A stretch of 64,000 nucleotides of DNA from assembly GCA_022448315.1 (NCBI GenBank), contig JAKVCA010000015.1, positions 56,837-120,836 of the forward strand. Reading direction: 5' to 3'. Below the pieces are notes generated by a model that was not told the origin of the DNA, made no database searches, and saw only the letters and a program-made list of their open reading frames with translations. Of this stretch, positions 25,656 to 42,012 are shown piece after piece (the first letter of the stretch is position 1; every line of letters starts with the position of its first letter). The position numbers and the translations under genes were made by a program. Origin of the DNA: Pirellulaceae bacterium (GTDB lineage Bacteria > Planctomycetota > Planctomycetia > Pirellulales > Pirellulaceae).

Positions 25656-27089
25656 ATGCGTCACTCAATCCCGAAGGTTCACCGACGTGCCATGCTCAAG
25701 AGAAGCGCCTTGGGTTTCGGTCATCTCGCAATGTCCGCCATGCTCGCCGACGAAGTGGCAGCAAGTGCTGATGAGGGCAACGCCCCCGGCAAGGACCCGC
25801 TGGCCCCGCAGAGCCCGCATTTTGTGCCCAGAGCAAAACGAGTCATATTCTTGTTCATGAAAGGAGGCCCATCCCACGTCGACACGTTTGATTACAAGCC
25901 TCAGTTGCAAAAGGATGACGGTAAAGAGTTGCCATTTGCCAAACCTCGGGTGCAGTTCGCAAAGACCAACAAACTGCTGAAGTCTCCCTGGAAATTCAAG
26001 CCTCGGGGGGAGTTGGGCATTCAGGTAAGTGAACTTTTCCCACACGTAAGCCAGTGCGTCGATGACCTTTGCTTTTTGCACTCGGTGCATGGAACGAATC
26101 CCGCACATGGCGGCGCGTTACTCAAGCTTCATACGGGAAGTGACAGTTTTGTGCGGCCGAGCATGGGAGCTTGGGTTACCTATGGATTGGGGACAGAAAA
26201 TCAGAACCTACCGGGCTTTGTGACCATCTGCCCAACCCTCGCCCATGGCGGCGTCAAGAACTGGGGCTCCGCTTTCTTGCCGGCCCATTATCAGGGGACT
26301 CCGTTGGGCAATGCGAGCCAGCCTTCGACTCAGGCCAAACTCAAGTACCTGCGTAATCAGAAGTTGACATCCGCCGATCAGCAGGTGCAGCTGCAGATGC
26401 TCCGACAACTGAACCAGCAGCATCTGCAGGACGTGGGAGGCAATCCGGATTTGGAGGCACGCATTCGCAGTTTTGAACTGGCGTTTCGAATGCAGACAGA
26501 GATGCCTTTGGTTGAAGATTTATCCGAGGAGTCCGAGGCAACCATGCGACTCTACGGCTTGGATGATCCCGCGACCGAGGATTTTGGTCGACAGTGTTTG
26601 CTGGCCCGCCGGTTCTCAGAACGCGGCGTGCGCTTTGTTCAGGTGACTCACAGTGATACCAAAGTTCAGTGGGATCAGCACGCAGATCTGCTCAATGGGC
26701 ATACCAAGAATGCCAAGGAAGTGGATCGTGGCATTGCAGGCCTGCTGAAGGACCTCAAACAGCGGGGCATGCTCGAAGAGACGCTGGTCATGTGGGGAGG
26801 TGAGTTTGGGCGAACGCCTGTCGCCGAGGGCAACAATGGTCGCGACCATAATCCTGAGGGCTTCACGATGTGGATGGCTGGTGGTGGAGTCAAAGCTGGA
26901 TTCCGTTATGGGGCGACTGACGAATACGGCTACTATGCGGTGGAAGATAAGATGCATGTGCACGATCTGCATGCCACTTTGCTCCATCTTCTTGGGTTGA
27001 ACCACGAGCGATTGACCTATCGGCATGCAGGGAGAGACTTTCGGCTGACGGACGTTGCCGGTCGCGTTGCGACAGGGATCCTGGCATGA
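25656..27089 (+). CDS. Tat-exported DUF1501 protein coupled to an M20 hydrolase
   Basis: A 477-residue DUF1501 protein. The ATG at 25656 is used: AGAGGA precedes it and codons further upstream lie inside the cytochrome gene. The signal is of the Tat type but weak ([16 protein letters not shown]). Hallmarks are [39 protein letters not shown] and [10 protein letters not shown]. The stop overlaps the start of the M20 gene by 4 bases (ATGA), so the exported protein and a cytoplasmic amidohydrolase share one operon and are probably translationally coupled. Confidence 0.9.
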
Positions 27090-28279
27090 CGCGGAATGTG
27101 GTGGAGATTGCACGGGAGCTGATCAAGATCCCCAGTGTGAATCCGATGGGGCACGAGGAAGATCGTTCCGTCGCTGTTGAGGAAGGGGTGACGCAGTACC
27201 TCATTGATTTTTTTGAAAGTCGCTCCATTCCCTACGAACTACAGAAGGTGCAACCGGGGCGAGAGAATCTGTTGGCGATGCTTTCTGGTGAGCCTGGACG
27301 ACCCATCATTCTGCTTGATGCACATCAGGATACCGTCCCGGTCGATCATATGACCGTGGAGCCATTTGGCGGGGAAGTGCGCGAAGGGCGAATTTGGGGG
27401 CGAGGAGCCTGTGATGTCAAAGGGGGGATGGCGGCCATCCTGATGGCGATTGACGCACTGAACCAATCGACGGATCGGCCGACGGTCTTGGCGAGTTTCA
27501 CCTGTGATGAAGAGCATCAGCAACTGGGAGCTCGACGTCTTGTCACCGATTGGGGGAACAAGCCACTTGCGGTACAAGACGAGACGGCCACCGCGTTTCC
27601 ACGACCGGATCTGGCGATCATCACCGAACCGACAGAACTGGATGTTGTGGTTGCCCACCGAGGTGTCATCCGATGGACACTGAGTACCGAAGGCAAAGCC
27701 TCGCATTCCTCCCGACCAGAGCTTGGAAACAATGCCATTTATCGAATGGCCAAAGTGATTGACGTTGTAAGAGCCATGGCGGACGAGTTGGGGAACACCA
27801 TTCCACCTCACCCTTTATGTGGACCCGCGACAATGAGTGTGGGTACCGTGCATGGTGGATCCAGTGTGAATGTTGTTCCTGATCACTGCGAGATTCAGAT
27901 TGATCGACGCTTATTGCCTGGCGAGGTCGCTTCCCACGTTCACGCTGAAATGAGTCAGCGTCTGGCGGAACAGCTTGATTTTTCAGTGACCGCCTCCGAA
28001 CCCTGGTGCCTCAGCGATCCGTTGGAAGATTCAAACAATGGGCCACTCGCGGAATCATTGGCCGCGGTCGCGCACGAGGTCGCGGGGGCTGGAAGACGCC
28101 TCGGCGTCTCCTATGGAACGCACGCGCCTCGTTTTGCTGCAGCTGGAATTCCCACCGTCGTTTTCGGTCCTGGGGATATTGCACAGGCTCACACAAAGGA
28201 TGAATGGATTGCCGTGGAAGCGTTGGGGCAGGCCGTTGATATTCTGGTCCGATTTTGCCAAAGTGTTTCCAGAATTTGA
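27086..28279 (+). CDS. M20 family amidohydrolase (ArgE/DapE/ACY1 type)
   Basis: A 397-residue cytoplasmic metallohydrolase. Metal and catalytic residues are visible: H80 and D82 in [12 protein letters not shown]110 in [11 protein letters not shown]142/E143 in [11 protein letters not shown], and a late histidine in [12 protein letters not shown]. The dimerisation lid domain lies about residues 190-310. Family members remove acyl groups from amino acids or cleave dipeptides; the sequence does not say which. It overlaps the DUF1501 stop by 4 bases, and kynureninase follows 102 bases later. A deacylation step before kynureninase is possible but speculative. Confidence 0.9.
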
Positions 28280-28381: not shown

Positions 28382-29614
28382 ATGTTGACCCAAGATGAGA
28401 TATTGCAATGGGATCGCGAAGACCCTCTCGCGCATCATCGTGACGCCTTTGTTTTGCCGGAAGGCGTGATCTATCTTGACGGAAACAGTCTGGGGCCCCT
28501 GCCCTGCCGAGCTCGAGACCGGATGAGCCAAGTGGTGGAACGGGAGTGGGGAGAAGGCCTCATTCGGAGCTGGAACGATGCGGGCTGGTATCCCGCGGCA
28601 ACTCGTTTAGGCGCGAAGGTGGCACCACTTGTTGGTGCGAATCCCGAAGAAGTCATTGTGACCGACAGCATGTCGGTCAATTTATACAAGCTTCTCGTGG
28701 GTTGGTTAGGGTCTCGATCTGGGAACCATGTCATTTTATGTGAACAAGACAGTTTTCCCACAGACCTCTATATCCTTGACAGCGTTGCCGAGTTTTTGCC
28801 GAACGTCCAGATTCAGAGGGCTTCCCGGGAAAGACTTCTCGAGCAACTGCAGCCGGGGATCTCAGTTGTTTTCCTGTCCCACGTCGATTATCGATCGGCC
28901 TATCTATGGGAGATGCACGAGGTTACCCGGAGAGCCCACGACGTCGGTGCCTGGACGGTCTGGAATCTCGCCCATAGCGCAGGAGCGATGCCATTGAGGC
29001 TAGGCCATTCGAAGGTCGACGCGGCTGTAGGATGTGGGTACAAGTACCTCAACGGCGGTCCAGGAGCACCTTCTTTTGTTTACGTTGCCCAGCGGCATCA
29101 GGAAAAGCTAGATCAACCGCTGAAAGGTTGGTTTGGTCATGCCGCGCCGTTTGAATTTTCAGCCGAGTATGAACCGGCAAAAGGCATCAGGAAAATGCTC
29201 TGTGGGACGCCCCCTGTGCTTTCCATGGCCGCTTTGGAGGCCAGCCTCGAGGATTGGCAAGCGGTGGACATGGAGGCGGTTCGAGTCAAATCCGTTCGTT
29301 TGAGTGAGTTGTTTCGACAACTGGTGCTTCAAGAGTGTGGAAGCGAAGCCCTGGAGCTGAGCTCACCGTTGGACCCTGATTGCCGTGGGAGCCACCTCGC
29401 ATTTCGGCACCCACAAGCCTATGGCGTCATACAGGCTTTGATTGCCGAAGGTGTGATTGGAGATTTTCGCGGTCCCGACTTGGTCCGGTTTGGGTTTGCC
29501 CCCCTTTACCTTCGCTATCAAGACATCTGGGAGGCGATCAAGGTACTGTCCCGGATTCTGAGTGAGCGACGTTACCTGCTCAAAGAGTTTCAGCAAAAGA
29601 AATCGGTGACCTAG
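28382..29614 (+). CDS. kynU: Kynureninase with Asn in place of the PLP-N1 aspartate
   Basis: A 410-residue fold-type-I PLP enzyme, expected to cleave kynurenine or 3-hydroxykynurenine to (hydroxy)anthranilate and alanine. Family motifs are LDGNSLGPLP, SFPTDLY, HVDYRSAYLW and YKYLNGGPGAP. K221 is the PLP lysine. The segment normally read as W-D-L-x-H-S-A-G is WNLAHSAG here: codon 195 is AAT at 28964-28966, 26 residues before the lysine, where the aspartate that contacts the pyridine nitrogen is expected. The second nearby aspartate, in FPTDLY, is kept. Activity may therefore be altered. It follows the M20 gene and shares a CTAG stop overlap with the next, convergent gene. Confidence 0.88.
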   Translation: MLTQDEILQWDREDPLAHHRDAFVLPEGVIYLDGNSLGPLPCRARDRMSQVVEREWGEGLIRSWNDAGWYPAATRLGAKVAPLVGANPEEVIVTDSMSVNLYKLLVGWLGSRSGNHVILCEQDSFPTDLYILDSVAEFLPNVQIQRASRERLLEQLQPGISVVFLSHVDYRSAYLWEMHEVTRRAHDVGAWTVWNLAHSAGAMPLRLGHSKVDAAVGCGYKYLNGGPGAPSFVYVAQRHQEKLDQPLKGWFGHAAPFEFSAEYEPAKGIRKMLCGTPPVLSMAALEASLEDWQAVDMEAVRVKSVRLSELFRQLVLQECGSEALELSSPLDPDCRGSHLAFRHPQAYGVIQALIAEGVIGDFRGPDLVRFGFAPLYLRYQDIWEAIKVLSRILSERRYLLKEFQQKKSVT

Positions 29615-30216
29615 GCCTCAAGTCTGCTTGTCAGGATGGGCCAAACGCGGTCGACCCATTGGCCGTAAAGCACCTTCGATGGATGAAGTCCATCCTCTGC
29701 GGTCAACTCGGGGCAATCTCTGGCCCTTCGCGTCAGGTCCGTGATGTCGACCCATGTGACGCCCGCCTGCTGACACCGATCTTTTTTTTCACGATTGTAC
29801 TCATCGATTTCAAGGCAAATCTTTGCTTGGTCTCGATCCTCGGCGAAAGGTGTGCAACCCCAGTCGGGGATAGATAACACGATGACACCTTCTTCTCTCG
29901 ATCCGGATAGCCGTACCGCGGTGGCGATTAACCGTTCCACCTGTTCGCCATATTCTTTGACGCATCGACCTTGATACTGATTGTTTACCCCGATGAGAAG
30001 TGAAACCAGATCGAAACTTTGACTCAGGTCGCGATTTTCCACAGCTTGCTGAAGTTCATCCGTTGTCCACCCGGTCTGCGCAATGATCTCGGGCGTCTCG
30101 GCCTCATAGCCAAAGTGTAAGATTCGATGGAACAGCTGGATTGGCCAGCGAGCGTCCGGCTCGACAGATTCGCCGATCGTGTAAGAGTCACCGAGTGCAA
30201 GGTAGGTCAATGGCAC
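29611..30216 (-). CDS. SGNH/GDSL hydrolase
   Basis: A 201-residue esterase/lipase-type hydrolase without a signal peptide. Block I is YLALGDSYTIGE (nucleophile S11), block III is LLIGVNNQYQG with the oxyanion asparagine, and block V is DGLHPSKVLY with catalytic Asp and His. The start is GTG at 30216; the GDS block begins at residue 9, so no later start fits. No Shine-Dalgarno is obvious. Its TAG stop shares the palindrome CTAG with the stop of kynureninase on the other strand. Probable cytoplasmic esterase or thioesterase; substrate unknown. Confidence 0.85.
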   Translation of the reverse strand: MPLTYLALGDSYTIGESVEPDARWPIQLFHRILHFGYEAETPEIIAQTGWTTDELQQAVENRDLSQSFDLVSLLIGVNNQYQGRCVKEYGEQVERLIATAVRLSGSREEGVIVLSIPDWGCTPFAEDRDQAKICLEIDEYNREKKDRCQQAGVTWVDITDLTRRARDCPELTAEDGLHPSKVLYGQWVDRVWPILTSRLEA

Positions 30217-40728: not shown

Positions 40729-42012
40729 ATGTCGCACTGGCCCCGTTTTTTTCGAGTTCACCAGAAGTTCGATGCGCCTGTGGTCAATGATGTTGTCCGG
40801 GCAACCATCGAGACGTTGGGAAAGCTTGACTTACGACAAAGAGTAAAGCCCGGGGAATCGGTCGCGATCACCGCCGGAAGCCGTGGGATTGCCCATATCG
40901 CAGAGATCTTGAAAGCCGTCGTCGAGCATTTCAAACAACTCGACGCGCGCCCGTTTATTGTCCCGGCCATGGGCAGCCACGGAGGAGGGACAGCAGAGGG
41001 ACAGTTGAAGGTTCTTCGTGGGTATGGAATCACGCCTGAGTTTTGCGGCTGCGAAATTCGAGCCAGTATGGAAACGGTCGCTGTCTCTCAGGCGGCCGAG
41101 GGATTTGCCGTCCATTTCGACAAGCACGCCTTCGAGGCAGACCATGTGTTTGTCGCGGGTCGCATCAAGCCACATACCCGGTTCGCAGGTGAAATTGAAA
41201 GTGGTTTGATGAAAATGATGTTGATCGGCCTCGGTAAACACGAAGGCGCGAAGATTTATCATCGGGCGATCGTCAATCATAGCTTCGATCAGATTGTCCG
41301 AAGCGTTGCGCGGGAAGTGCTCGATCGATGTGCCGTATGCGGCGGTCTGGCGATCCTTGAAAACGCCTATGACCAAACTGCGAAGATTGAGGCGGTTGCT
41401 CCTGAATGCTTTGAGACGCGAGAGCCTGAGCTATTGATTCAGGCGAAGCGGTGGCTTGCCCGACTTCCGTTCGAACGGGCGGACATACTCTTCTTGGACC
41501 ATATTGGTAAGGAGATCAGCGGGGCGGGGATGGATACCAATGTTGTGGGTAGAAAGTGGAATGATCACGAGGCTTTAGAGCACGAAACTCCAAAAGTGAA
41601 ACGGATATGTGTGCGGGGACTGAGTCCAGCCACTCATGGGAATGCTATTGGTCTGGGTCTGGCTGAGTTTTGCCTGACGCGGGTGATCGACGCGATGGAT
41701 GTCAATGTCACTCGAATCAATTCGCTCACGGGGAGTCACCCCACGGCCGGGATGATCCCGTTTGACTATCCCAACGACGTGGAAATGTTGGAGGCGGCCG
41801 TTCAGACTGTAGGACTCGTGGAGCCTGATGGCCTTCGAATTCTTTGGTCACAGGATACGTTGCATCTCGGAGAGATTGAGTGTTCAGAAGCGTATTGGGA
41901 ACAGGCTCAGCAACGCGATGACCTCGAGGTACTGGTATCTCCTCGTTCGCTTCCATTAAGCGAGTCCGGCTTGCTTCCAGATTTTGTTGGGCTTTCGCCG
42001 AAGTCTCAATGA
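40729..42012 (+). CDS. LarA/DUF2088-like protein
   Basis: A 427-residue protein of the lactate-racemase (LarA, DUF2088) superfamily. Visible hallmarks are AITAGSRGIAH, FIVPAMGSHGGGTAEGQ, GRIKPHTRFAGEIESGLMK and GLGKHEGAKIYHR, which fit the substrate/cofactor-binding histidines of the family. LarA uses a nickel-pincer nucleotide; none of the larB/C/E maturation genes is in this window, so the cofactor is uncertain. Many relatives act on other 2-hydroxy acids. The start is well supported by AAGGGA. A convergent NfeD-like gene ends 9 bases away. Confidence 0.83.
   Translation: MSHWPRFFRVHQKFDAPVVNDVVRATIETLGKLDLRQRVKPGESVAITAGSRGIAHIAEILKAVVEHFKQLDARPFIVPAMGSHGGGTAEGQLKVLRGYGITPEFCGCEIRASMETVAVSQAAEGFAVHFDKHAFEADHVFVAGRIKPHTRFAGEIESGLMKMMLIGLGKHEGAKIYHRAIVNHSFDQIVRSVAREVLDRCAVCGGLAILENAYDQTAKIEAVAPECFETREPELLIQAKRWLARLPFERADILFLDHIGKEISGAGMDTNVVGRKWNDHEALEHETPKVKRICVRGLSPATHGNAIGLGLAEFCLTRVIDAMDVNVTRINSLTGSHPTAGMIPFDYPNDVEMLEAAVQTVGLVEPDGLRILWSQDTLHLGEIECSEAYWEQAQQRDDLEVLVSPRSLPLSESGLLPDFVGLSPKSQ

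Follow-up and report, generated by a model that had tools for sequence, protein, structure and literature searches.

A predicted Pirellulaceae kynureninase with asparagine in place of the aspartate expected at the PLP ring nitrogen

Introduction

PLP enzymes of fold type I usually have an aspartate 20–50 residues before the lysine, touching the ring nitrogen (N1) of the cofactor, according to the excerpt of PMC6411801. A kynureninase-like gene in the 64,000-nucleotide stretch of Pirellulaceae DNA analysed here (the window) encodes asparagine at this place. Is the substitution shared by a clade, is it tolerated by a working enzyme, has it impaired the enzyme or changed its chemistry, or is the base simply wrong? 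Should the base prove real and the enzyme active, the gene would be a natural experiment on the dependence of a fold-type-I PLP enzyme on its N1 aspartate. With a real base but a dead enzyme, we would be looking at a module, otherwise kept in the family, that has begun to lose one of its steps. If the base is an error, the case is an ordinary one. Until the base is confirmed we regard the enzyme as of modest interest. The asparagine, which is private to this sequence, probably reflects either a crippling change of recent date or an error in the sequence.

Results and discussion

Identity and predicted fold

The gene and its cofactor lysine are located as follows.

28382..29614, + strand: kynureninase (kynU-like), 410 amino acids, ATG start and TAG stop, assigned by family score and structure match
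29042..29044, + strand: Lys221, the PLP Schiff-base lysine (Lys227 of the Pseudomonas fluorescens enzyme), codon AAG, assigned by alignment with 1qz9

The translated product scores 284.7 bits against TIGR01814, the NCBIfam kynureninase equivalog (cut-off 246.4), and also matches KYNU_C and Aminotran_5 of Pfam. By homology and family score it is a kynureninase, with predicted activity only. The nearest solved relative by sequence is the P. fluorescens kynureninase 1qz9 (45% identity over the full length), and the nearest family members (G598 and G599, about 51% identity) are likewise of the P. fluorescens type. An AlphaFold2 model built from a 32-sequence alignment has a mean pLDDT of 95.0. Foldseek places 1qz9 first for this model (TM 0.95, rmsd 1.4), followed by 2hzp, 3e9k and 7s3v; all four are kynureninases of fold type I. 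The latter three are human chains, which share the fold and the motif spacing with the window enzyme but only 25–26% identity in the structural match.

The motifs Y220-K221-Y222, H198, FPTD (125–128) and R369 are all present and conserved. We assume catalytic roles for the YKY lysine, the histidine of DLxH, the FP[ST]D motif and the arginine near the C-terminus, and we take Asp132, Asp201 and His204 of the P. fluorescens enzyme to be PLP-contact residues. The window enzyme has the same lysine as 1qz9, together with His198, Tyr220, FPTD and the C-terminal RFGFxPLY; it differs in having Asn195 where 1qz9 has Asp201. The human enzyme has aspartate (FDLAH) and leucine where the window enzyme has Asn195 and Met97. 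No second kynureninase copy was found in the organism's own genome, whose sole other match is a distant homolog of 24% identity.

Residue 195 and the second aspartate

Two positions of the cofactor pocket have to be considered together.

28964..28966, + strand: Asn195, codon AAT, in place of the aspartate expected at the PLP ring nitrogen (P. fluorescens Asp201), from direct reading and alignment
28763..28765, + strand: Asp128 of FPTD (P. fluorescens Asp132), second carboxylate of the cofactor pocket, kept, codon GAC; read from the sequence, its contact role being presumed

Direct reading of the codon bears out the preliminary description, which had reported AAT and hence asparagine; the local peptide is W194-N195-L-A-H198. 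The same description had compared the spacing with that of Asp201 and Lys227 in the P. fluorescens enzyme, and the alignment with 1qz9 agrees: N195 pairs with D201, K221 pairs with K227 and the stretch from one to the other is ungapped, so that N195 sits 26 residues ahead of the PLP lysine.

Homologous positions were collected at several depths. In the family search (E ≤ 1e-25) 55 of 241 genomes matched, at 56 places that were all fetched; 54 of these were readable at position 195, with aspartate in 53 and asparagine in one. In the phylum search (E ≤ 1e-30) 123 of 392 genomes matched, and all 123 were readable (122 Asp, 1 Asn). A search of genome contigs with the single protein as query gave no match; with an alignment as query, aspartate was found in 80 of 80 loci, these being the best 80 of at least 595 confirmed candidates and hence a sample biased to close relatives. 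Matches in plasmid records numbered 123, from which only L084 and L085 entered the tally; both have aspartate, as does the additional locus L005. A first set of 142 loci contained 141 aspartates and one asparagine. The final tally, in which the family, phylum and genome-contig sets overlap, is 257 aspartates and one asparagine among 258 aligned places, the asparagine being that of the window gene; lysine occupies position 221 in all 258. This tally leaves out three fragments that do not span position 195 (L175 and L292 of the family set, and L008), five longer copies of loci already included (L169–L173, excluded as duplicates) and more distant matches, which, judging by their low identity, are mostly other class-V PLP enzymes.

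Restricting the comparison to kynureninases with the H198, Y/F220 and K221 signature leaves 183 sequences, of which 182 have aspartate at position 195 and one, the window gene, asparagine. Even 75 distant kynureninase-like proteins lacking the full H198 and Y-K signature have aspartate there, in 75 of 75. The near-invariance asserted in the preliminary description is thus evident in 257 of 258 places. It had also proposed aligning planctomycete kynureninases to see whether asparagine is clade-wide. Aspartate in all 53 readable family relatives indicates a private change, and with aspartate in the 122 other phylum matches as well, clade-wide asparagine is ruled out. On these alignments the asparagine exceeds chance variation. 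Kynureninases have long been known, and a natural asparagine at position 195 is absent from the other 257 places compared here; a search of the open-licence literature found no report of a natural asparagine at the N1 site of a kynureninase.

The codons for the homologous aspartate in 100 other sequences of the P. fluorescens type are GAC (63) and GAT (37). With GAT used in 37 of 101 sequences, AAT lies one base away from a codon in use.

The more distant kynureninase-like proteins include a subfamily (L207 and most of L218–L290) that is frequent in the phylum sample and has D-x-[YF]-Q and KW[LV] motifs instead of DLxH and YKYLN.

The aspartate of FPTDLY is retained, as had been noted at the outset, and we presume that its P. 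fluorescens counterpart, Asp132, contacts N1 of PLP. Position 128 is less constant than position 195: among the 183 signature-bearing kynureninases it is aspartate in 178 and asparagine in four, with one unaligned. In the 75 distant proteins, whose loose alignment makes the counts indicative, it is V 33, P 15, I 8, L 8, N 7, D 2, C 1 and G 1. The four carriers of FPTN for FPTD (L002, L088, L094 and L124) come from a genome of the same family (G026), an unclassified proteobacterial assembly, Paraburkholderia haematera and Paracoccus aminovorans. All four retain D195, which suggests that loss of one carboxylate or the other can be tolerated. None of the 183 signature-bearing kynureninases lacks both carboxylates (one is unreadable at position 128), so compensation between the two is possible. 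The constancy of position 195 beside a variable position 128 nevertheless argues that residue 195 does the main work.

Condition of the gene and its hydrolase partner

Conservation in the rest of the protein was judged from 100 sequences of at least 38% identity (own included), with columns assessed leave-one-out. N195 is the sole departure of the window enzyme at columns conserved to 100% (22 columns), 98% (34) and 95% (57). At the 77 columns conserved to 90% it is joined by the mild changes A161S, D177E and A231S, making four departures; 26 of the 100 sequences have four or more. The enzyme has 14 private residues, a number exceeded in seven of 101 sequences and equalled in three others. T97M and L191W are among them and presumably lie close to the cofactor region, to judge by nearness in sequence. 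The reading frame contains no frameshift or stop. GC, GC3 and codon choice are near those of the neighbouring genes, the codon score being the lowest of 14 genes by a small margin. General decay of the gene is ruled out by the single departure at the 57 most conserved columns and the ordinary count of private residues.

The kynureninase lies between the following two genes.

29611..30216, − strand: SGNH/GDSL acylhydrolase, tail-to-tail with the kynureninase, stop codons overlapping; conserved family partner
27086..28279, + strand: M20 peptidase or ArgE-DapE-like deacylase, upstream of the kynureninase; not a conserved neighbour

Convergent arrangement with the same GDSL hydrolase is also seen for other kynureninases of the family. 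Of 18 family loci, that of the window among them, 13 have a hydrolase homolog (E ≤ 1e-6) next to the kynureninase; at L069 a weak hydrolase trace beside the kynureninase reaches the contig edge, and none was found in the available stretch of L064, L066, L031 and the contig-end locus L072. When the hydrolase was searched for on its own (E ≤ 1e-20) it was found in 18 of 241 family genomes, and all 18 have a kynureninase of the P. fluorescens type. Kynureninase occurs without the hydrolase in G410 and, as a fragment, in G514. A Fisher test on the resulting table (18/2/0/221) gives p of about 3e-25, uncorrected for shared ancestry. By coordinates the two genes are within about 200 bp of each other in 14 of the 18 genomes, about 3 kb apart in one and on separate contigs in three; adjoining pairs run in tandem or convergent order. 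Of the 46 columns invariant across 12 other loci, the window hydrolase keeps 45, and the module thus seems to be maintained.

The hydrolase may provide the deacylation or formamidase step, as an N-formyl- or N-acyl-kynurenine hydrolase. In G410, one of the two genomes without it, a KynB-like stretch lies directly beside the kynureninase; it is below cut-off and contains one stop. Against such a role, the genomes G531–G533, which possess tryptophan 2,3-dioxygenase (TDO), have both the hydrolase and a KynB-like match below cut-off.

The M20 deacylase falls below the cut-off of all 25 NCBIfam families among the matches listed. No M20 match (E ≤ 1e-6) was seen beside the kynureninase in any of the 17 family relatives listed, within flanks that extend at most about 1.5 kb. 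A functional link to this gene was set aside, the neighbourhood not being conserved in these relatives.

Interpretation of Asn195

We rank recent impairment first, followed by an error in the base, an active enzyme that compensates for the change, and changed chemistry. The first reading, to which we give about an even chance, is that a kynureninase of the P. fluorescens type has undergone a recent one-base change, confined to this lineage, that strongly reduces its activity. The change would most simply be GAT to AAT, exchanging the aspartate that holds the proton on the PLP ring nitrogen. PLP would presumably still bind to Lys221, and the asparagine could interact with the ring nitrogen only as a hydrogen-bond donor, the nitrogen being unprotonated. 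Such a donor would make the cofactor a weaker electron sink for the quinonoid and ketimine steps, which would precede the hydrolytic Cβ–Cγ cleavage of kynurenine to anthranilate and alanine. For the P. fluorescens kynureninase, transient intermediates of both kinds are reported in the title of a 1998 paper by Phillips that PMC6424897 cites. Activity should fall by orders of magnitude, the limit being set by how far Asp128 can substitute. By analogy with human AGT, described next, we would expect an enzyme that is folded, PLP-bound and much slower, encoded by a gene that would be freshly impaired and perhaps under relaxed selection; the genome gave no match to TDO, nor to a KynB-type formamidase at E ≤ 0.001.

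A close parallel is the D183N variant of human alanine:glyoxylate aminotransferase (AGT), also of fold type I and with crystal structures, which has the same Asp-to-Asn swap at N1; it differs in being an aminotransferase and a pathogenic disease allele. According to the excerpt of PMC5601474, the catalytic efficiency of this variant is down by about 2.3 × 10^4-fold and its PLP affinity is almost unaltered, with the asparagine hydrogen bonded (about 3.0 Å) to the deprotonated N1. Asp168 mutants of an aldolase, on the other hand, gave synthesis yields similar to wild type, which counts against a large rate loss. The constancy of residue 195 points to impairment, if the base is real. Against it, a long period of relaxed selection would leave more damage than is seen, the partner hydrolase being intact too; Asp128 is present and could compensate; and the change is a single base in a draft assembly of 126 contigs. 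The intact module somewhat favours error or compensation.

Rather less probable, though second in our ranking, is that the organism has Asp195 and that the A of the codon, in place of G, is a consensus or assembly error or a minor allele. Asparagine in this sequence alone among 258 places is consistent with an error, as are the other columns of at least 95% conservation, all intact, the intact conserved partner and the fragmented source assembly. No genome of the same genus is among the 59 relatives listed, and a close second copy for comparison is therefore lacking. The open reading frame, free of frameshift and stop, argues the other way, as does codon usage near that of the neighbours, although the kynureninase scores lowest among the 14 genes compared. 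Consensus base errors that strike one given catalytic residue are moreover rare.

We think it unlikely that the enzyme is active because Asp128, near the ring nitrogen, acts as counter-ion, the carboxylate being in effect shifted from position 195 to position 128. Retention of Asp128, the mirror state in the four Asn128/Asp195 sequences, the lack of any signature-bearing kynureninase without both carboxylates and a protein otherwise free of signs of decay would all fit. However, it is position 128 that varies, position 195 being aspartate in every other sequence and seemingly indispensable, and the contact between Asp132 and N1 is a presumed one. An equally doubtful form of this idea is an active natural kynureninase with asparagine at the N1 site, in which the carboxylate is supplied by Asp128 or by post-translational deamidation of Asn195 itself. 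Were the base real and the enzyme active, the share of the work that falls to each carboxylate could be tested on the two kinds of natural variant, N195/D128 and D195/N128.

It is very improbable that the enzyme has taken up another substrate or another reaction, such as retro-aldol cleavage, elimination or transamination carried out with the ring nitrogen neutral: excerpts of PMC6424897 and PMC6411801 describe PLP enzymes of other folds that operate with a neutral ring nitrogen, and T97M and L191W are also private, but every other column of at least 95% conservation is retained, 14 private residues is an ordinary count and the partner gene is the same as in Asp-bearing relatives. The suggestion of other specificity or chemistry in the preliminary description finds no pointer in a one-base private variant with its other conserved columns unaltered.

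Kynurenine pathway context

TDO (PF03301) matched in two of 14 control genomes but not in the organism's own, the completeness of which is 96.95%. Among 18 family genomes with a kynureninase of the P. fluorescens type, some of them only 73–86% complete, TDO was found in three and gave no match in 15, own included. TDO-less relatives keep Asp195, so lack of TDO alone does not amount to relaxed selection. The formamidase of KynB type (TIGR03035) gave no match in the own genome at E ≤ 0.001. Its cut-off was passed by none of 19 genomes, nor by any of the 14 controls, with matches below cut-off in 10 of the 19 genomes and seven of the 14 controls. Indoleamine dioxygenase (IDO, PF01231) matched in none of 15 genomes and in none of the control genomes; 3-HAO likewise gave no match in the own genome or in the controls. 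With silent controls, these two negative results do not establish absence.

A conserved pair of kynureninase and GDSL hydrolase, usually in genomes where TDO is not detected, suggests a separate route feeding kynurenine or acylated kynurenine into these bacteria, and this pair may matter more than Asn195. Elsewhere in the window, a nickel pincer cofactor-dependent isomerase of group 22 is encoded at 40729–42012 (+ strand; NF052515, 498 bits, cut-off 400).
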